Shown here piece after piece: positions 1 through 17,020 of a stretch of 64,000 nt of DNA. Under the pieces are notes generated by a model. It was given only the letters and a program-made list of their open reading frames with translations, did not search any database and was not told the origin of the DNA. The stretch is from Thraustochytrium sp. TN22. Taxonomy: Eukaryota; Sar; Bigyra; Thraustochytrida; Thraustochytriidae. Position numbers and translations under genes: made by a program. The stretch covers positions 1-64,000 of the forward strand of contig JABLUY010000173.1 in the NCBI GenBank assembly GCA_013306675.1. The letters run 5' to 3'. Position 1 is the stretch's first letter. Every line of letters begins with the position of its first letter.

Positions 1-156
1 CGCGGGCTCGCGGGCTCGCTCGGCGGCGCGGCGCGGCGCGGCGCGGCGGGCGCGGAGCGAAGCGGCGCGGCGGCGGCGGCGGGATTTTGAATTGCGCACG
101 CGCGGGCGAGGGACAGGGCGGCGCGGCGCGGGGCGGCGGCGGCGGCGCAGGACGGG

Positions 157-1185
157 ATGAAGGCAGTGGTGTACGACCGGCATGGGCCGGTAGACGAGAC
201 GGTGGACCTGGATAGGAGGTTCCCGAGGGCGTTTATTGAGAAGGGCGGGAGCGAGATTCTGGTCAGGGTCATGGCGGCGTCCGTCTCGTACAAGGACCTG
301 CGCGAGGTGCGCGGCGACTTTAAGAGCGTGTCGTCAGCGACGCTGCCGCGCGTGCTGGGACGCGACGTGAGCGGCGTGGTGGAGGCCGTGGGCGAGGGCT
401 GCTGCAAGTTCCGCGTGGGCGACGAGGTCATCGGCATCGTGCCGAGCGGCGCGCTGGCGGAGTTCGTCGCGGCGCCCGAGCACTTCTTCGTGCGCAAGCC
501 CAAGCGCGTGTCGCACCTGCACGCGGCTGCCTTCCCGCTCAGCGGCCTGCTGGCCTTCCAGTGTCTGTACCTGCACGGCAAGCTGCGCGAGGGCGAGAAC
601 GTACTGATCATCAACGGGTCGGGCGGCGTAGGCAGCCTGGCCATCCAGATGGCCAAGTACAAGAAGGCGCGCGTGTGGGCGACGGCGTCCACGCACATCG
701 AGATGGTACAGAGCATCGGCGCAGACCACGTCATCGACTACGCGCGCGGCGACTGGTGGGACATTCTGCGCCGTGAACACAAGAAGATGGACCTTGTGCT
801 GGACTTTGGCGAGGGCTTCAGCGCGTGGCGCCACTGCCAGGACATCCTCGACCCGGACTCGGGCCGCTTCGTGACCATCGTGCCAGATGTGGCCGATGGG
901 CCGGTCGAGTTCTTCAACTACAAGCTCGGCCAGTCGCTGCGCTCGGTCGCCTCACTTCGCACCTACAAGTACGTGGACGACGTGGACCTGTCCAATCGCG
1001 ACCACCTCACCTACATCGCCAAGATTGTGCAAAACGGCCACCTCAAGCCCATTTTGGACCCCGATTCACCCTTTGACTTTAAGCCTGCCGGCGTGCGCGC
1101 GCTTTTCCAGAAGCTCGAGTCCAAGCATACGCGCGGCAAGCTCATCATGAACATCGCCTGCGACACGGGCCAACCGGAGCCTTGA
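157..1185 (+). CDS. MDR-family NAD(P)H-dependent quinone/enone oxidoreductase
   Basis: 342-residue single-exon member of the medium-chain dehydrogenase/reductase superfamily. The N-terminal GroES-like fold (about residues 1-125) carries the usual GRDVSGVV and VGDEVIG elements. A Rossmann fold follows, with the nucleotide-binding loop NGSGGVGSLAIQMAK at 153-167. There is no cluster of zinc-binding Cys/His residues, so it is closer to quinone oxidoreductases and RTN4IP1-like proteins than to classical zinc alcohol dehydrogenases; it should reduce quinones or activated double bonds with NADPH. The start is the first ATG after a GC-repeat leader. Length fits the family. No targeting signal is evident. 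The exact substrate cannot be told from sequence. It converges with the minus-strand gene to its right. Confidence 0.9.
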   Translation: MKAVVYDRHGPVDETVDLDRRFPRAFIEKGGSEILVRVMAASVSYKDLREVRGDFKSVSSATLPRVLGRDVSGVVEAVGEGCCKFRVGDEVIGIVPSGALAEFVAAPEHFFVRKPKRVSHLHAAAFPLSGLLAFQCLYLHGKLREGENVLIINGSGGVGSLAIQMAKYKKARVWATASTHIEMVQSIGADHVIDYARGDWWDILRREHKKMDLVLDFGEGFSAWRHCQDILDPDSGRFVTIVPDVADGPVEFFNYKLGQSLRSVASLRTYKYVDDVDLSNRDHLTYIAKIVQNGHLKPILDPDSPFDFKPAGVRALFQKLESKHTRGKLIMNIACDTGQPEP

Positions 1186-6645: not shown

Positions 6646-7061
6646 ATGAACAGGATGTCGGCCGTCACGGATGAGACGGACTTGAACGGTGCGGGCAGCA
6701 CCGGCGCGACTGGGCGGCAGCCGCTGCAGCCCCGAGCGATGCAGAACGTCTCGTTCGAACTTCAGCACCAGGAAAAGCTCGCCGAGGGAAACCCAGACAC
6801 CTCCAAGAGGCCAGCGCCGACGCCGTCGCCATCGCCAGTGCCAGCATTGCCGCCGGGGCGGGTGGGGAGCGAGGCATACGAAGAGCACGTCGGCAAGAAG
6901 CTGGGCTTGACCAAGGTATCGCAGCTCGAGGGGAGCGCCATGCGGAATGGGAACGGTTCCTTGACGGGGTCGCAGCGGCGGCTGCGTTTCAAGAACGGCG
7001 ACACGCCTCCAAACTCATCCGCGAGGCTCGCGGATGGCTTCGACGTCGACGAGGACGATAT
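6646..7061 (+). CDS. Polycystin (PKD2-type) channel, 5' part, cut by transposon insertion
   Basis: The first 138 codons of a TRPP-type cation channel gene, up to a transposon insertion in an Asp-rich segment (FDVDEDD then Ile). The encoded region is a polar cytoplasmic N-terminus with a Pro-rich linker. The frame runs 19 codons into the transposon and stops at 7119, so this allele would give a 157-residue fragment. The rest of the gene resumes at 13579. Joining 6646-7061 to 13579-17020 with one ATAT copy gives 3858 nt, exactly divisible by three and open throughout, which identifies the two parts as one gene. Confidence 0.85.
7058..7061. repeat. ATAT target-site duplication, left border
   Basis: Host ATAT immediately before the CCCAATC end of the short transposon copy; repeated at 9399, 13530 and 13575. 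Confidence 0.8.
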
Positions 7062-9398
7062 CCCAATCACACCTCTATGCTTACTCGTATCCGCCTACCA
7101 CGCGGGGGTCCCTCGGTGACGCCCGGCACAGGGGGCACTAAAGCGTATTAAGAGGGTACTTTACTCCCGATTTGCTCCAAAAAAGTGGCCTAGAGTCTGG
7201 CGAAGTTAGTTCCGCATTCGATCAAAAACGCAGCGATGGGGCCGAGCTTGAAGAGGCCCACTCGAAGCGACCCAAGGCTCCTGCCCCCTATTCATTTTGG
7301 CCGAAGGCGTGGTGGTTAGGATGAGATGAGCTCGGCAGTTCGCCCAGAGCGGCTTTGGGGGGAGCTCGCGCGCGACTTCGTCGCGGAGCGCGCTGGAGCC
7401 GCAGGCGCTGCGGCGCGCGGCTGCAGGCGGCCCTGGCGGGTGCCTTGTGCCTGCTCTCAGCTCGCACGCCCCTGCCGCAGCGCTTGGACGTGGAGTCGGG
7501 CCCGCACTGCGACATCATGGCATCGGCGAGGCCTAACCACCGCGTGGAGGACGACAGCGACAGCGACAGCGACAGCGAGTTCGTGCCCCTGGACAAGCGG
7601 GACACAGGGGACGAAGACGAAGAAGGAGAGGAGCTTGGCGACGAGGATGCTCGTGCTGAGGCCGCTGCGCAGCAAGACTTCGAAGACATACTTGCGTTGG
7701 TCGACGAACCGACGCGTGGTGCGAGTGCATGTTCGAGGTCGGCCTCATTCAGCACAAGACCGTTCCGGGGCTCGCAGTCTCGCCGGATGGAGTCGCTCGC
7801 GTCCGGCTTCCAGGCGCGGAGTGCGACGCATCGTCAGTACTATGCAGCGTCGAGATCAAGACGCGCGTCGCGCCTGGAGGCGCGGTAGACGCACGTATCG
7901 TGAGCACCCAGATGAACACGTGGGGGACGAGACTTGGTGGAAGGCCATACCTGCCGAGCACCGCGCGCAAGTCTTGCACCAAGCTGTGGTCCTCCAAATC
8001 GATCACGTGCTCTACGTTGCTGCCAGCACGAGTTCGTGTTTGTACGCCTGCCTCGTTGAAGTGCCTCCGGACGCCCGGCTCGCCATGGAGCGCGCTCTGA
8101 AACCGTGGGCGGACAAGCTCACGACATGGGCGCACCAGAGCATCGACAGCGGGTGCGCCGCCCAAGCCACCTGCCATCTTCGGCGAGGAGGAGGGGGCGG
8201 TGCTGAGCTCGCACTTCCGGCTGTGGCGCGCCATGCGCAAGCTTGTCGCTCTGAAGGGGCCCATGCGGCCCGTGCATGTCATCAAGTGCTTACCGCAGGA
8301 GCTATACAACGTCGCAAAGGGCGGCGTCGACGGAAGCACACAGTACGTGGAGCAGATCACCAACACGCAGTGCATGAATCTGAGCTGCGACCAGAACATC
8401 GCGTTGCGCACGTACAAGCAGCTCGTTGTCAACGCCATCGTGGTCTACCGCTACTTACAGGCTGCGAGGAAGAGCAACCTCGAAGACAGCGACGGGCTAA
8501 AGGCCCTCCGCGACAAGGTGAACCGCTCTGAAGCGCTCAGCACTGTCTCGTTCCGCCTCACTGTCGACATGGTCCGTCACGTCTACAGGAGCAGGCAGCT
8601 CGATACGGCGCAGGTGGAGTTCAACATGCAGCCAAGCATGCCCAAGCCCACTGGGCTCACCAGGGAAGCGGCGAGGGACCTCGTGACCGCCGGTAAGCGC
8701 AAGCGAACCCCCGAGTTGCAGACGTTCTTCAACCCCGGCCAAGCCCGCGACAGCCGCCTCGATGCCGCACTGCAACATGACTCAGAGGCAGCGGGAAAGG
8801 CATCCTTCAACGCCAACAACAAGAGGATTCCCGCCAAGCGGCTCTGCGTCATCTGCGGCAAGCAAACGCACCGTCGTTGCACCATCTGCGGTGTGCCTCT
8901 GCACGTGTTCATGAGAAAGAATGAACGCACAACCTGCTTTTCCAAGTGGCACACGCGCGTGCGCGTCGAGCCTCACGAAGGCTTCAAGAAGCGCAAGACA
9001 AACGTCAACGGAACACCTTCGCCCATTTGCCTCGATCATGTCGATTCGAGCAGCGCCAGTGCCTCGTCCGGTACCCCTACAGCGCAGAGCAGGAACGACC
9101 ACGTAGCCCAAGCCAGCTACACCGACACCCCATCAAGCCATAGTTCAAGATCCTCTCGCAGCAGCCTCAGCACGAGTCCATCGTGCCCTTGATGCAGCCC
9201 AAGTTGGCCTCAGCATCCGCACAGGCCAGTCGGAAGTGACCAACACTTTACGCTTCCATACAAACCCAGTAGTTGAAAGTTCCAAAAATGATTAGAATCA
9301 TGATAGCAACAGGTCAGTCGAGCGCAAGCAGGAGAGCCGATTTACTAGGGATAATATGGCTATCCTGATTAAACTCCGTCTAGGGCGATGGGATTGGG
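7062..9398 (+). mobile_element. piggyBac-type DNA transposon, short deletion copy
   Basis: 2337-bp element. It starts CCCAATC and ends GATTGGG, a 7-bp perfect terminal inverted repeat (11 bp counting the flanking ATAT), and is bordered by ATAT on both sides. CCC-type ends with a 4-bp duplication fit piggyBac, although ATAT replaces the usual TTAA. It is almost base-for-base the same as the long copy to its right, apart from two internal deletions: about 1.77 kb removing the first two thirds of the transposase core (junction about 7711-7714, with a two-base filler) and 19 bp near 7918. It cannot make an active transposase but keeps both ends, so it could be moved in trans. Confidence 0.88.
7517..9192 (+). 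pseudogene. Deleted piggyBac transposase-nuclease gene of the short copy
   Basis: Remnant of the same gene as in the long copy. The acidic N-terminus (from ATG 7517) is followed by the 1.77-kb deletion that removes both first catalytic Asp residues of the DDE core. The sequence then continues, in a different frame, with the PD-(D/E)XK nuclease (SPDG at about 7778-7789, EIK about 7851-7859). The 19-bp deletion then disrupts the end of the nuclease domain. From about 8170 a long open frame covers the GGVD segment with the third DDE Asp and the Cys/His domain (CVICG...CTICG...CFSKWH) ending at 9192. That last frame has stayed fully open. Confidence 0.82.
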
Positions 9399-9402
9399 AT
9401 AT
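9399..9402. repeat. ATAT shared between the two transposon copies
   Basis: A single ATAT separates the right end of the short copy from the left end of the long copy, as expected if one element inserted into the duplication of the other. Confidence 0.8.
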
Positions 9403-12400
9403 CCCAATCACAGCTCTATGCTTACTCGTATCCGCCTACAACGCGGGGGTCCCTCGGCGACGCCCGGCGCAGGGGGCACTAAAGCGTATTAAGAGGGTAC
9501 TTTACTCCCGATTTGCTCGAAAAAAGTGGCCTAGAGTCTGGCGAAGTTAGTTCCGCATTCGATCAAAAACGCAGCGATGGGGCCGAGCTTGAAGAGGCCC
9601 ACTCGAAGCGACCCAAGGCTCCTGCCCCCTATTCATTTTGGCCGAAGGCGTGGTGGTTAGGATGAGATGAGCTCGGCAGTTCGCCCAGAGCGGCTTTGGG
9701 GGGAGCTCGCGCGCGACTTCGTCGCGGAGCGCGCTGGAGCCGCAGGCGCTGCGGCGCGCGGCTGCAGGCGGCCCTGGCGGGTGCCTTGTGCCTGCTCTCA
9801 GCTCGTACGACCCTGCCGCAGCGCTTGGACGTGGAGTCGGGCCCGCACTGCGACATCATGGCATCGGCGAGGCCTAACCACCGCGTGGAGGACGACAGCG
9901 ACAGCGACAGCGACAGCGAGTTCGTGCCCCTGGACAAGCGGGACACAGGGGACGAAGACGAAGAAGGAGAGGAGCTTGGCGACGAGGATGCTCGTGCTGA
10001 GGCCGCTGCGCAGCAAGACTTCGAAGACATACTTGCGTTGGTCGACGAACCGCCCGAGCGGGGCTTGCCCGGCTCAAGCGCGACTCGAAAGGCAACGAAG
10101 GGTCGCAAGGCTGAGACGCGGTGCAAATGCGGATCGACCAGCCACAAACGTACGAGCTCCAGGGCATGCCCGCTTTTCAACGCGGCCGACTCCAGGAAGC
10201 CAGGCCGCAGCAAGGCCTCCGCGAAGGCTGCGGCAGTCAAGGTCACCGATGCGGAGGTGTCAGGTGACTGGGAGCTGCTCCCCTGCCCGGACGAGTATGA
10301 GCTCATGTGGCAGGAAGATGCGAGGTCAATGCTCTTCGACCAGCGTGCCAAGGCTCATGTCAAGTACATGAAGGATCGCGTGGAAACAACGCTGAGCAAC
10401 CTCGGCCGCGATCCCGACGAGATAGGTGTCTTCGATGTCTTCCACCTCCTGGCTGAAGACTTCGTTCACGAGCTCTTCAAGCACGCTCATAGAAAGATGC
10501 TCACGCTCTTCAAGGCCACGCTTACAGAGCAGGACTTTTGGCTGTTCCTCGCCATGTACAACTTCTTGCAGGTGCTCAATCTCTCAAAGGAGTTGTGCTT
10601 CGAGATGGCCATTACACCTCTCCGCCGTGTGATTGGCCCGAACGTTCAACTCCTCGGCATCGAGATGTTCAACCGCATTCAGCGGTGCATCACGATGGTC
10701 GATCCGAACATGGGCGTGTCGACCTCGACGACATGGACGGACACGTCTGACATGGTCAAGTACTGGGAGCACATGGAAGTCACTGCCTTCAAGGCCACTC
10801 GAAACATGGTCATGAGCCCACATTCCACGCTGGTCATTGACGACGAGCTCGTTGGCTCGCGCGCAGGAGATGTGCAGGTGAGGAGCATCAGCAACCGCAA
10901 GGCCGGTAAGGACGGCATCAAGAACGACAACATCGCGGACTCGCTCCTTCGCGTCGTGTACGCCATCCGCCACCAGCGGCGTGAAGAGTGGAGCCAGCAA
11001 CACGCGGTGGTTGCGCTGCTGAAGGATGTTGAGGTCCGCCTCGGGAAGGACATGGGCTGCCTAGTGGCCGCCGATCGTGGCTACTCGAAGAAGCTGCTCT
11101 GGGAGACCCTCGCCTCCAACAACTGCAGTTTCTGCATGGTAGGCAAGATCGACCACCCGATGCGGGGGGAGAGTGAGCTCAAGCAGAAAGAGATTGATGC
11201 TGGTGCGTCGGCCGCGACCCGGCCGAATGTGGTGCCAGACGGAGGGCGCCAAGGTCGCGAAATCTTCACGATGCGCTCAACAGTGCAGCTCAGCCGTGGC
11301 GGAGCCTCCAACCAGAAGGACATCCATGCCTTCGCCTTTGTCGACTTCCAGTCTGCCACGTCGCGCGAAGCTCGCCTCATCCGCTTCGTGGAGTGCGGAA
11401 CCGGCCACGCGGAGCGCATGCGCAGCACGCTGGTGCTGGTGCCACGGTCAATCTCCGGCGAGGAGCCGCTGTTCCTGCCAGGCAGCAAGAATAACACCGG
11501 GACACGTAAGAGCATCGCGCTAGAGCTCATGGACAAGTGCAAGCCGCTCACGTGCTCTCAGCGCTGCACCGACTGGTTCGTGCTGCGGGTCTTTTGCATC
11601 ACTGGCACTGCGAGCGAGAAGTTCGCGTTGCAATGTCCTGAGGCCCGTCAACTGCTGCGCAGAAGAGGGAAGGCGCACACGGACAACGAGGACGAGATGA
11701 TGTCGGACGAGGAGATGGCTCGTTTCATCTCCCGCTCCTGGGTCTTCACCCGGGGCGTATCGACCAAGGACATGAGGACCGGGTCGATGAACGAGGCGTC
11801 CGTGGCCTCAAGCATACGTAAGCAGGCGTGGTGCGAGTGCATGTTCGAGGTCGGCCTCATTCAGCACAAGACCGTTCCGGGGCTCGCAGTCTCGCCGGAT
11901 GGAGTCGCTCGCGTCCGGCTTCCAGGCGCGGAGTGCGACGCATCGTCAGTACTATGCAGCGTCGAGATCAAGACGCGCGTCGCGCCTGGAGGCGCGGTAG
12001 ACGCACGTATCGTGAGCACTCAGATGAACACGAACTACTTCTCGTGCATTGTGGGGGACGAGACTTGGTGGAAGGCCATACCTGCCGAGCACCGCGCGCA
12101 AGTCTTGCACCAAGCTGTGGTCCTCCAAATCGATCACGTGCTCTACGTTGCTGCCAGCACGAGTTCGTGTTTGTACGCCTGCCTCGTTGAAGTGCCTCCG
12201 GACGCCCGGCTCGCCATGGAGCGCGCTCTGAAACCGTGGGCGGACAAGCTCACGACATGGGCGCACCAGAGCATCGACAGCGGGTGCGCCGCCCAAGCCA
12301 CCTGCCATCTTCGGCGAGGAGGAGGGGGCGGTGCTGAGCTCGCACTTCCGGCTGTGGCGCGCCATGCGCAAGCTTGTCGCTCTGAAGGGGCCCATGCGGC

Positions 12401-13529
12401 CCGTGCATGTCATCAAGTGCTTACCGCAGGAGCTATACAACGTCGCAAAGGGCGGCGTCGACGGAAGCACACAGTACGTGGAGCAGATCACCAACACGCA
12501 GTGCATGAATCTGAGCTGCGACCAGAACATCGCGTTGCGCACGTACAAGCAGCTCGTTGTCAACGCCATCGTGGTCTACCGCTACTTACAGGCTGCGAGG
12601 AAGAGCAACCTCGAAGACAGCGACGGGCTAAAGGCCCTCCGCGACAAGGTGAACCGCTCTGAAGCGCTCAGCACTGTCTCGTTCCGCCTCACTGTCGACA
12701 TGGTCCGTCACGTCTACAGGAGCAGGCAGCTCGATACGGCGCAGGTGGAGTTCAACATGCAGCCAAGAATGCCCAAGCCCAATGGGCTCACCAGGGAAGC
12801 GGCGAGGGACCTCGTGACAGCCGGTAAGCGCAAGCGAACCCCCGAGTTGCAGAAGTTCTTCAACCACGGCCAAGCCCGCGACATCCGCCTCGATGCCGCA
12901 CTACAACATGACTCAGAGGCAGCGGGAAAAGCATCCTTCAACGCCAACAACAAGAGGATTCCCGCCAAGCGGCTCTGCGTCATCTGCGGCAAGCAAACGC
13001 ACCGTCGTTGCACCATCTGCGGTGTGCCTCTGCACGTGTTCATGAGAAAGAATGAACGCACAACCTGCTTTTCCAAGTGGCACACGCGCGTGCGCGTCGA
13101 GCCTCACGAAGGCTTCAAGAAGCGCAAGACAAACGTCAGCGGAACACCTTCGCCCATTTGCCTCGATCATGTCGATTCGAGCAGCGCCAGTGCCTCGTCC
13201 GGTACCCCTACAGCGCAGAGCATGAACGACCACGTAGCCCAAGCCAGCTACACCGACACCCCATCAAGCCATAGTTCAACATCCTCTCGCAGCAGCCTCA
13301 GCACGAGTCCATCGTGCCCTTGATGCAGCCCAAGTTGGCCTCAGCATCCGCACAGGCCAGTCGGAAGTGACCAACACTTTACGCCTCCATACAAACCCAG
13401 TAGTTGAAAGTTCCAAAAATGATTAGAATCATGATAGCAACAGGTCAGTCGAGCGCAAGCAGGAGAGCCGATTTACTAGGGATAATATGGCTATCCTGAT
13501 TAAACTCCGTCTAGGGCGATGAGATTGGG
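9403..13529 (+). mobile_element. piggyBac-type DNA transposon carrying an internal nuclease domain, long copy
   Basis: 4127-bp element in the same orientation as the short copy and separated from it only by ATAT. Ends are CCCAATC...GATTGGG. It encodes the full set of transposase parts (see the CDS at 9858). About 450 bp of leader precedes the coding region and about 200 bp follow it. Scattered base differences between the copies show they are not a simple assembly duplication, but they are few, so both insertions are recent. Position, ends and coding content fit piggyBac; a size over 4 kb is large for the family because of the added domain. Confidence 0.9.
9858..13323 (+). CDS. piggyBac-like DDE transposase with inserted PD-(D/E)XK (YqaJ-like) nuclease
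   Basis: Starts at ATG 9858 with an acidic Asp/Ser-rich N-terminus and a small Cys/His motif (KCGSTSHKR...CP). The piggyBac core follows: the first catalytic Asp in the IDDELVGSRAG segment (about residue 328), the second in AADRGY (about 406). Then come a nuclease domain with MNEAS (Glu about 646), SPDG (Asp about 681), EIK (Glu 703, Lys 705) and a downstream Gln/His helix (about 640-800). The piggyBac fold resumes with YNVAKGGVD (third Asp, codon at 12460) and ends in a C-x2-C-x7-C-x2-C...C-F-x3-H domain at 12970-13080, the family's hallmark. The frame changes by one base near 12280-12300, after the nuclease, and the same change is in the short copy. It is therefore either an old defect, a small unseen intron or a programmed shift. 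Domain identities are from motif recognition, not a search. Confidence 0.82.
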
Positions 13530-13533
13530 ATAT
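13530..13533. repeat. ATAT between the long copy and the right-end tip
   Basis: Follows the GAGATTGGG end of the long copy and precedes the 41-bp tip fragment. Confidence 0.75.
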
Positions 13534-13574
13534 GGCTATCCTGATTAAACTCCGTCTAGGGCGATGGGATTGGG
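13534..13574 (+). repeat. 41-bp extra copy of the transposon right end
   Basis: Repeats the last 41 bases of the element (GGCTATCC...GATTGGG), flanked by ATAT on both sides. It matches the right end of the short copy exactly and differs by one base from that of the long copy. Inside the elements the same 41 bases are preceded by an internal ATAT, so this looks like the remnant of a third, nested or recombined element. With the preceding AT it supplies an ATG (13532) in frame with the host channel gene. Confidence 0.85.
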
Positions 13575-13578
13575 ATAT
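13575..13578. repeat. ATAT target-site duplication, right border
   Basis: Right-hand host copy of the duplication; host codons resume at 13579 in the phase left at 7061. Confidence 0.8.
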
Positions 13579-16500
13579 TGACGACGATGGTGATCGTGAG
13601 GGCGGTGGCCAGGCCAAAGACCCACACCCGCTGGCGCCTGGGCTAGCGGCCGAGACTGCACCGCCGCGCGGCATGGAGCGCAACGCGTCGCAGCGGCTGC
13701 GTGACGCATGCAAGGCGTCTACAGAGATGCCCGCAGTATCGCCCTCAGCCTACTCGGAGGCGAACTCGCAGGCGGCGGTAGTCCCTGGAGACTTTCCTTC
13801 AGCGATTGTGGTCATGGGCGACGGCGAGGACGACGAAGACGACGAGGGCGACGAGGGCGAAGACAGCGAAACAGAGAGCGGGTTGGCACCGCGAAGAAGG
13901 AGATCGCCGAGCCGCTCGCCGGACACCATGGGCATTCCCCTCTTCGAGATGTACAAGGCGACGCGAATGCTCAAGATGCAGGCCAAGTGTCTCGAGGGCC
14001 TCGTGTTTTTCATCTTCGTGGTGACATTTACCTTTGTGTACGTGGAGATGCGCGCCACGGTGCTGGCGGGCGAGACGACGGAGGCGCTGCTGGACTTCTT
14101 CGTGAACGAGGAGTTCGTGGCACTCTCCGTGCCCGGTCTCGAAGGCGAACCCTTCTTCCGCAAGACCTACCGCGACATCAAGACGATCGAGGAGTGGTGG
14201 CTCTGGGCGCTTGGCCCGCTATCCGAGGGCCTCTGGTACGAATACGACGACCCCGCCATGCCGCCCGGCGGCATGCCAATGGGCGGCTCCCAAAATTTCG
14301 TCCTGGGCGGCGCCCAAGGCGGCGTCCTCTTCCGGACGCTGCGCATGCGCGACGACTCGTGCTCGCGCAGCTTCTTCGAGACCATGCAGATGGTCAACCG
14401 CAGCGCTGAAGAGTGCTACGGCTCCTGGCCCGTGGTCGATGCGGAGGACCCGATGGACGCCTTCATGAATCCGCGCATCGACACGAGACCCTTCGGCCTG
14501 GCCGTGAACGAAACCATGTCGGGGGCCGGCCTCAACTTGACGGCCGAGTCCGCGGCCCTCGCCGAGAAGGCATTCACCTACACTCAGGATATCGGATCCT
14601 CGCTCGAGGGAACGCTCCTCGGCCAAATGTACCTGTACCGGAATCAATACGGAGTCGGGGGTCACCTCGTAGACCTACCCGTGGACAACGATGGCGGCCT
14701 GGCCACCGATACGCTCACACGCATGTATCTGGGCAACTGGCTCGACGTGGCCACACGCGTGGTCTCCGTGGAGTTCAACGTGTACAACCCAAGCACCAAC
14801 GTGGTGACGGCGATCCGGTTCTTCACGGAGTTCTCGCAGACAGGCATGATCAGGCCCTCGTATCGCTTCTATCACATCAACGCGATGCTCTGGAGTCACC
14901 TCGCACCCGGCTATTACATCCTCGTCTTCGTGTTTCTCGTGCTCCTCGTCACGCTCTCGTACAAATGGATGCGGCGCATCCTGTGCTCGCGCCGCCTCAC
15001 GAAGCAGGTGCTCAAGTGGAACTTCGTCTTTGACACGGTGCTCCTCATCCTCTTCTGGTTCTCGCTCGGCGTTCTCAGCATGATCACTCAATACTCGAAC
15101 GTGATCCGAGAGGAGGCTTTCCGCGAGACTGTGGTGAGCTCAACCTTCACGTCGCGCATCTTCGAGAACGCCGAGGGCATGCACTCGGTGGACGCGCTCT
15201 GCTCCATCAACATCATGCTGGCCACCGTCAAGCTCATCAGCTTTTTGCCCTTTAAGACGACACGCACCATCTGGGCGACGCTCGGAGGCGCCGTCAAGGA
15301 CATTGTTGTCCTCGGGATCGTCGTGCTTGTGTTTTGGGCCGGCTTTTCGGTCGGCTCGCACGTCACCTTTGGCTCGCTGGGCTTCTTCGACTTCAACCGC
15401 ATCGACCGCACCTTCGGCACGCTCATGGTGCTCATGTTCTCCGGCAGCATCGAGTTCAATGCCATGCGCGAGGTCTCCTTCACAGCGGCGCCGCTCTTCT
15501 ACTCCATCTACATGATCTTCATGTGGGGCGTCATGCTCAACCTTTTCGTGGCCATCGTCGTGCTCACCTACGAGCGTTACACGCAGTGGCAGTCCAACTT
15601 TGAGGCCTGGTCCGAGCTGCACCACGGCATCAACAACACGCGCATGATCATGAGCTGGCCAGAAATCGCGCAGCACCGCATGCGCCACTTCTACCACGAC
15701 GTGCGCATCAACTTTCTCAAGACCTTTTACAGTGCCGACGACAGGCCACTTCGCAACAACAGGTCCGGCGCGACCCAGGGCAACAGGAAGTTTCCGGGCC
15801 AGGTGCCCGCGTTGGGTGACGCGAACTCGGAGGACGGCTCCATCGCCGACGGCGGCGCCACTGGCGCCAGCGCCAATCACCGCAGCAACGCTCACGAGAC
15901 TGCCTCGGAGACCGACCTGAACGGCGAGGAGGGCCACGACGCCAGTGCGCAGCGCGCCTCGGGGCTCAGCGTCGGCGCTTCGTCCCACCGGGCTTCAGAA
16001 TCGCGCTCCGGGATCGGCTTCCCCTGGTACTCGCAGAGGCACCTCTCTGGCTTGAGCTCGCAGAGCGGCAGCCGCCGCGGGACCAAGTTCTTCTCGCCCG
16101 GCCCGGCCTTCACCCCCGCGGAGGCCGTCGACCTCTTCCATGTCGACCAAAAGAGCGCCAGCCTCGAGAAGCTGGCCCTCGACGTCTACTCTCTGCGCGG
16201 GCTCGAGGGCGAGGAGCGCGCAGCTCGCCTCGAGGAGCTCAAGAATCCGTATTTCAAGCTCTTTCGCGAGGCCGCGCGCCGCGTCTTGTGGCAAGGCCAG
16301 GTCAAGAGCACACGCAATCTGCTTGTTCGCTTCTACAACACGGCAGCGCTCGAGACCACCATCATCAAGCGCTGGCGCCAGGAGGTCGACTTGCAACGCG
16401 GCTCCTCCTCGCAAAGCAACTCGCTCAGCATTTACGAGCGCCTCTCCGCTTTCTTCTCTCGCCTCCGCTCGCCCTCAAAGAGCGACCCTACCAAGAAGAA

Positions 16501-17020
16501 GTCTCCTAGGGTCCGCGCAACGAAGAAGCTCGTGCGCTTGCGCGTTATCCAGAAGCAGGAGAAGGAACTGGCCGACGCCAAGCGCGCCATCAAGCAGATC
16601 CTCAAGGACACACAGCGTCTCTACAAGAAGCATCGCCAGAGCTTCAATGCCATCATGCGATCCACCTGGCAGCACGCCCCGGACGAGGAACGTCTGGAAG
16701 AAATTCCCTTCCTCGAGCTCCAGGAGATGCTCTTTCCCTGCAAGTTGGGTGAGTGCGCTACGTGCGACAAGGCGCGTAGCACCAAGCCAGCCCGCGATCT
16801 CGTTGAGAACTTTGCCCTGCTGCGCAAGCGCCGCACCATCTTTCACGGGAACCGCCGCCGCATGCCGCGCGTGCGCCGCAATCTAGAACTCTCGGTGCGC
16901 CTTTCCGGGTCGCCCGTCACCCGCCAGCACAGCATGCCCATGGGCAGCCCAAACACGCATGGAGGCGGCTCTGTGCGGTCTCCCAGCGTACCACGCAGTG
17001 CGGCACGCCAGCTCGAGTAG
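13579..17020 (+). CDS. Polycystin (PKD2-type) TRP cation channel, main 3' part
   Basis: Encodes all the channel's membrane parts. After an acidic linker comes a first transmembrane helix (GLVFFIFVVTFTFVYVEM). The large extracellular polycystin domain starts with the DIKTIEEWWLWALGPL segment and has several N-glycosylation sites. Then follow helices YYILVFVFLVLLVTLSY, VFDTVLLILFWFSLGV, the MLATVKLISFLPF voltage-sensor-like helix, KDIVVLGIVVLVFWAGFSVG, a pore segment with the SGSIEF filter and the last helix MIFMWGVMLNLFVAIVVL. The long C-terminus has two charged coiled-coil stretches. Polycystins are non-selective Ca2+-permeable channels, often ciliary. An ATG at 13532 in the transposon tip is in frame, giving an alternative 1162-residue product without the host N-terminus. 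Confidence 0.92.

Follow-up and report, generated by a model that had tools for sequence, protein, structure and literature searches.

What kind of mobile element carries a second nuclease inside the catalytic part of its own transposase, and what would such an enzyme do there? The question is raised by a transposon at positions 9403 to 13529 of a 64,000-nucleotide stretch of DNA from Thraustochytrium sp. TN22 (assembly GCA_013306675.1, contig JABLUY010000173.1, positions 1 to 64,000 of the forward strand; hereafter the window), where a preliminary description, made from the letters alone, had proposed a piggyBac lineage with its own nested nuclease. The element is probably a recently active cut-and-paste DNA transposon whose piggyBac-fold DDD transposase holds a lambda-exonuclease-type (YqaJ) PD-(D/E)XK nuclease between its second and third catalytic aspartates (D2 and D3, the first being D1). 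The order of the parts, the conserved active sites, the fold in structure models of two relatives, the element ends and the 4-base-pair (4-bp) ATAT-type target duplications were computed directly. Moving the element and processing the broken ends may both be tasks of a single protein. The coding parts are arranged as follows.

9858..12662, + strand: open reading frame (ORF) 1, with the N-terminal region, D1, D2 and the nuclease; homology extends only to about 12275
10122..10178, + strand: motif C-x-C-G-x4-H-x6-C in the N-terminal region of ORF1, which we take to be zinc-knuckle-like
10833..10868, + strand: D1 motif VIDDELVGSRAG, Asp codon 10839-10841, IDDELVGSRAG at 10836-10868
11064..11087, + strand: D2 motif VAADRGYS, Asp codon 11073-11075, AADRGY at 11067-11084
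11253..11402, + strand: beta-rich stretch after D2, placed from the models of relatives, at the place of the piggyBac insertion domain
11541..12275, + strand: nested lambda-exonuclease/YqaJ-type PD-(D/E)XK nuclease domain, starting at residue 562
11781-11804, 11886-11909 and 11955-11978: stretches containing the nuclease motifs MNEAS, SPDG and EIK, respectively
11793-11795, 11898-11900, 11964-11966 and 11970-11972, + strand: nuclease catalytic codons for E, D, E and K, respectively
12087-12158, + strand: nuclease Gln helix
12283..13323, + strand: ORF2, in a different frame, with D3, the second helical part and the Cys-rich end; the ORF starts at 12331 and homology at about 12283
12433..12474, + strand: D3 motif LYNVAKGGVDGSTQ, including KGGVD, Asp codon 12460-12462
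12976..13083, + strand: C-terminal Cys/His-rich motif, C-x2-C-x7-C-x2-C at 12976-13020 and C-F-x3-H at 13066-13083

The piggyBac marks and nuclease motifs named in the preliminary description are all found where it placed them, and the parts follow the order D1, D2, nuclease, D3, with KGGVD behind the nuclease and not before it. The nuclease begins some 80 residues earlier than the limits of residues 640-800 first given to it. The distance of 78 residues between D1 and D2 equals that between D268 and D346 of piggyBac, and the Y-N spacing at D3 is that of Y439/N440/D447.

The same design recurs outside the genome. Three database searches, each scoring about 8,000 candidates, returned at least 10 homologous proteins from elsewhere; with 10 such homologues, the arrangement of motifs exceeds chance. 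The nuclease lies between D2 and the D3 motif in eight of these ten, the remaining two (P0009 and P0013) stopping before D3, and none of the ten lacks the block where its length allows judgement. An alignment of 11 rows (gaps set aside; P0009, P0001 and L036-L038 excluded) holds D1 in 10/10, D2 in 10/10 and D3 in 8/9 rows of the transposase, and E, D and E in 9/9 each and K and the helix Gln in 8/9 each of the nuclease. Both active sites are kept in members down to 25% identity with P0005; the exceptions within the nuclease are a Glu at the K position of P0015 and a Glu at the Gln position of P0014. P0012 is missing the first part of the nuclease domain and continues into an FKBP domain. P0009 is a Hondaea fermentalgiana record named histone acetyltransferase HAC5 that terminates in a truncated copy of the transposase. 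Relatives were also sought in viral contigs, where none of 50 pattern matches was confirmed.

Structure models of two relatives (mean predicted local distance difference test scores, pLDDT, of 55.9 and 65.8) support the proposal at the level of the fold. With moderate confidence, a piggyBac fold surrounds the insert, with an RNase H-like core bearing D/D/D and an all-helical dimerization/DNA-binding domain flanking it; residues 177..997 of the model align to 117..520 of PDB entry 6x67, a range that spans both parts. The insert itself matches the fold of lambda exonuclease with its E, D, E-x-K order. In both models beta strands follow D2 and precede the nuclease, and by position only this beta-rich stretch would be equivalent to the piggyBac insertion domain. 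The suggestion that the nuclease is placed where other DDE enzymes carry insertion domains is right as to the interval, between D2 and D3; in the two models of relatives a beta-rich stretch is still present ahead of the nuclease. The Cys/His columns of the C-terminal motif are conserved, although alignment of this motif to chain 553-594 scored negative in a part where model confidence is low.

Profile searches identify the two halves in different relatives. Pfam YqaJ is above its cut-off in P0015 and DDE_Tnp_1_7 in P0013 (26.0 against 22.4 bits), with P0008 and P0009 below the latter cut-off, whereas the window protein, for which the preliminary description had proposed such searches, is below the YqaJ cut-off and has no DDE_Tnp_1_7 match. 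Scanned as a single sequence against Pfam and NCBIfam, the window protein gave YqaJ at 0.008-0.07, DDE_Tnp_1 at 0.035 and SgrT down to 4e-4, the last regarded as chance; since all are weak, they do not settle its identity. Profile comparisons by hhalign with single sequences of this genome are likewise weak, with probability 30% and E 5e-4 against a YqaJ gene (L049) and probability 7% and E 0.005 against a piggyBac-family gene (L046). A PDB sequence search with the 11-row profile yielded a relevant match; with a 5-row profile or P0013 as query it returned nothing relevant. Three PF13843 (piggyBac-family) loci of the same genome (L046, L047, L048) showed no nested nuclease when their translations were read.

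The ends of the element, its target duplications, its many copies and an upstream deletion derivative are additional to the preliminary description. They form an array with the following parts.

7058..7061: ATAT target duplication, left edge of the array
7062..9398, + strand: copy A, a 2,337-bp deletion derivative with both ends complete (from repeat families named D1/D2/D4, ends and length)
9399..9402: one ATAT common to copies A and B
9403..13529, + strand: copy B, the full-length element of 4,127 bp (from ends and length)
9403..9412, + strand: left terminal inverted repeat CCCAATCACA, pairing with GATTGGG at 13523-13529
13530..13574, + strand: ATAT and, after it, part of the right end once more (repeat family D5)
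13575..13578: ATAT target duplication, right edge of the array

Copies A and B stand head to tail, with A directly upstream of B, and both start with CCCAATCACA and end with GATTGGG, the element ends being CCCAATC/GATTGGG. When 7062-13578 is removed and the window rejoined at a single ATAT, the host reading frame runs uninterrupted into a large membrane protein, which argues that the array was inserted into coding sequence and that its ends are correctly placed. The interrupted part is the N-terminal coding part of this protein (window 6646-17020), which looks polycystin-like by eye only. Filler bases at the junction of the deletion derivative were considered and rejected after comparison with other full-length copies.

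In the genome as a whole (37.9 megabases, Mb, in 453 contigs; 49 matches listed, with 49 of 366 candidates scored) the full-length element is present in at least four copies and the deletion derivative in many, the form of copy A being the commonest among the copies found. Of 40 aligned rows, the 34 that are as long as copy A were compared with it and show 3-15 differing positions each, the other six being of another length; because the copies are nearly identical, the spread of the element looks recent. Forty distinct copies have both ends; the 4-bp flanks are identical in 34 of them (ATAT 24, ATAA 4, ATAG 4, CTAT 1, TTAT 1) and unequal in six. The central two bases are TA in all 25 insertions distant from other copies; the other 15 of the 40 lie in or beside another copy. 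Several nested or adjacent copies appear by eye to sit at the ATAT within the right end of the element itself. CCC/GGG termini with a 4-bp target duplication are those of the piggyBac superfamily.

Several observations weigh against this reading. TTAA, the piggyBac target, is absent among the 34 identical flank pairs of the 40 copies, and the element is therefore classed as a piggyBac-fold lineage and not as a canonical piggyBac. Foldseek, which covered the first model only, listed lambda exonuclease and Tn5 but no piggyBac among 50 PDB rows, the piggyBac match coming from a second look with VIA. The models are of relatives and not of the window protein, and their confidence, moderate overall, is low at D1 and D3 and in the Cys-rich end. 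Genome-wide searches with PF13843 and PF09588 found other loci and not the window element, whose protein, as noted, is below the YqaJ cut-off. P0011 has Asn at D3 and P0009 has Lys at the nuclease Glu. The main deletion of copy A bears no special repair signature by eye. The frame changes between the nuclease and D3 in at least four full-length copies, all equal in length, and one of these (L004, contig C33) has an additional stop in ORF1. Given this frame change and the L004 stop, full-length copies of the window family may not produce the full protein.

The single protein over 9858..13323 of the preliminary description is accordingly seen in relatives and not in the window copy, where D3 stands in another frame: the design is intact in relatives, and the window family as assembled is split over two frames. 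An intron as the source of the frame change was rejected, homologous residues standing on both sides within about 10 codons. A paralogue in the same genome (L005/P0001, 43% identical) has a single open frame of 1,213 codons and every catalytic residue. It lies at L005:1216-4857 (C239) and could be an old copy standing alone or a gene adopted by the host; no transposon ends (a CC...GG pair with matching 4-bp flanks) were found within 2.5 kb around it, and none matching the exact end patterns of the window element were found around L006. L004 has 35 differences to the window copy; they occur in clusters, are mostly of a few base-change types and resemble assembly or sequencing noise.

The split could be functional, with ORF1 alone yielding a protein that has the nuclease but lacks D3, and the whole transposase arising by rare frame-shifting. 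The four full-length copies found share the frame relation, a 164-nucleotide stretch spanning the frame change does not vary among the 37 locus entries matched by the search pattern (several of these fall on the same copy, and L004 is not matched owing to substitutions), and the burst looks recent; a mutation inherited by all members of a young burst would, however, explain these facts equally, the intact paralogue is one open frame, and the eight outside relatives with both halves are recorded as single proteins, so that a functional frame change seems unlikely. It is also quite unlikely that the nuclease block is degenerate or merely a structural or DNA-binding substitute for the insertion domain. 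Three diverged paralogues with long open frames (L036 on C151, L037 on C232 and L038 at C11:135834-136967) appear by eye to have lost the catalytic positions of both domains and are candidates for host-adopted genes, and the Lys of P0009 points the same way; the nuclease residues are nonetheless kept in the window element and eight outside relatives (E, D and E in 9/9, K in 8/9, with P0009 and the paralogues uncounted), and the beta-rich stretch retained before the nuclease in both models means that no replacement was needed. In inteins, the classic layout is a nuclease nested near the active site, and the resemblance could suggest that the block is an intein, or a parasite of homing-endonuclease type, that invaded the transposase gene and is excised after translation. 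Such an origin is extremely improbable, as Pfam scans with E limits of 10 or, in others, 1 listed no intein (Hint splicing) family, no relative among the 10 found is missing the block where length allows judgement, and the fold is that of lambda exonuclease.

If the transposase with its nested nuclease is a working enzyme, its steps can be drawn from piggyBac, for which the available accounts describe nicking, hairpin formation over the 4-nucleotide flank, hairpin opening and joining at a 4-bp target. By analogy, the RNase H part would nick the element ends, hairpins would form over the 4-nucleotide flank and then be opened, and joining would occur at 4-bp H-TA-D sites, as compared with TTAA in piggyBac. 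The nuclease, predicted to be active, would work on DNA ends within the same complex. Enzymes of the lambda exonuclease fold resect DNA 5'-3', and viruses use nucleases of this kind for trimming DNA ends. The favoured role would be resection of the 5' strand at the broken donor site, and also of 5' flaps, and our best guess is that the nuclease resects the DNA ends left at excision. Such resection would interfere with seamless re-closure and direct repair towards a homologous copy, by which the element would gain copies; it is favoured because seamless closure loses the donor copy and homologous repair restores it. That resection inside the transpososome destroys the complementary 4-nucleotide overhangs and forces homologous repair, and that DDE transposases repeatedly gained such nucleases at the same place, in this lineage and in Dada, is put forward only tentatively.

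The main rival to donor resection, predicted like it, is that the nuclease acts on the transposon itself, trimming its 5' flaps or opening its hairpins, integration being finished by target gap filling and the donor site left untouched; this, too, is possible but doubtful. The insert occupies the interval of the piggyBac insertion domain, which is described in the accounts available as contacting the hairpin, and end processing was proposed by the Dada authors for their nested exonuclease in PMC3706591. Of 16 copies with at least one flank other than ATAT, 10 have identical and six unequal flanks (L009, L013, L018, L024, L029, L065), as if a flap were sometimes brought and sometimes trimmed. 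ATAT stands on one side in five of the six and is possibly the element's own carried flap, as expected if an element from an ATAT site brings a 4-nucleotide flap to a slightly different target. This is consistent with a hairpin/flap pathway, although recombination between copies, 15/40 of which lie in or beside another, can also yield unequal flanks, and piggyBac, in the same accounts, opens its own hairpins. Donor resection, flap trimming and hairpin opening are equally compatible with the data so far.

PiggyBac serves as a gene-transfer tool, and its excision is seamless; here a natural relative carries a predicted end-processing enzyme near its active site. If donor resection is true, a cut-and-paste enzyme that was seamless has become one that gains copies. 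The system makes testable why this lineage, Dada, KolobokE and ISL2EU carry exonucleases, and whether donor breaks or the ends of the transposon are their substrate. A further suggestion is that a piggyBac fold can use ATAT-type targets, which offers natural material for studying target choice.

With piggyBac of Trichoplusia ni (PDB 6x67) and piggyBat (9c0f) the element shares the fold, the D1-D2 spacing of 78, YN-x6-D with the third Asp, a possibly equivalent C-terminal Cys motif, CCC/GGG ends and a 4-bp duplication with a TA core; it differs in having between D2 and D3 a nuclease of about 245 residues, an ATAT-type target in place of TTAA and the N-terminal zinc-knuckle-like motif. With lambda exonuclease and YqaJ (PDB 1avq, 3sm4; PF09588) it shares the fold, the E, D, E-x-K order and the downstream Gln helix, but as a domain within a transposase and not a stand-alone enzyme. 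The principle of a nested nuclease is already known from Dada (Laccaria bicolor, Ectocarpus siliculosus), where PMC3706591 describes an exonuclease that likewise lies within a DDE transposase, between the second Asp and DxxH; that nuclease is DEDDy (DnaQ-like, 3'-5') and not of the lambda exonuclease type, and the Dada superfamily targets small-RNA genes, whereas the window array sits in a protein-coding frame. Lambda-exonuclease-like nucleases are likewise known beside the transposases of KolobokE and ISL2EU. KolobokE, as described in PMC9587614, is a DDE element with a PD-D/ExK nuclease of this kind downstream of the transposase domain, and belongs to the Kolobok superfamily, with 4-bp duplications, 5'-RR ends and TTAA. 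ISL2EU, in PMC4482050, has its YqaJ domain in a separate ORF, an AT dinucleotide duplication and a PHIS transposase, while the window element has a 4-bp duplication and its relatives carry the nuclease in a single protein, between D2 and D3. An accessory nuclease is also on record in piggyBac: PMC3627910, with reference to Kapitonov et al., mentions elements with one of another class, DEDDh. A term-based literature search turned up no piggyBac with YqaJ or lambda exonuclease, which does not prove its absence in print, and the combination of a piggyBac fold, a PD-(D/E)XK enzyme and an ATAT-type target is, as far as the literature was searched, new.
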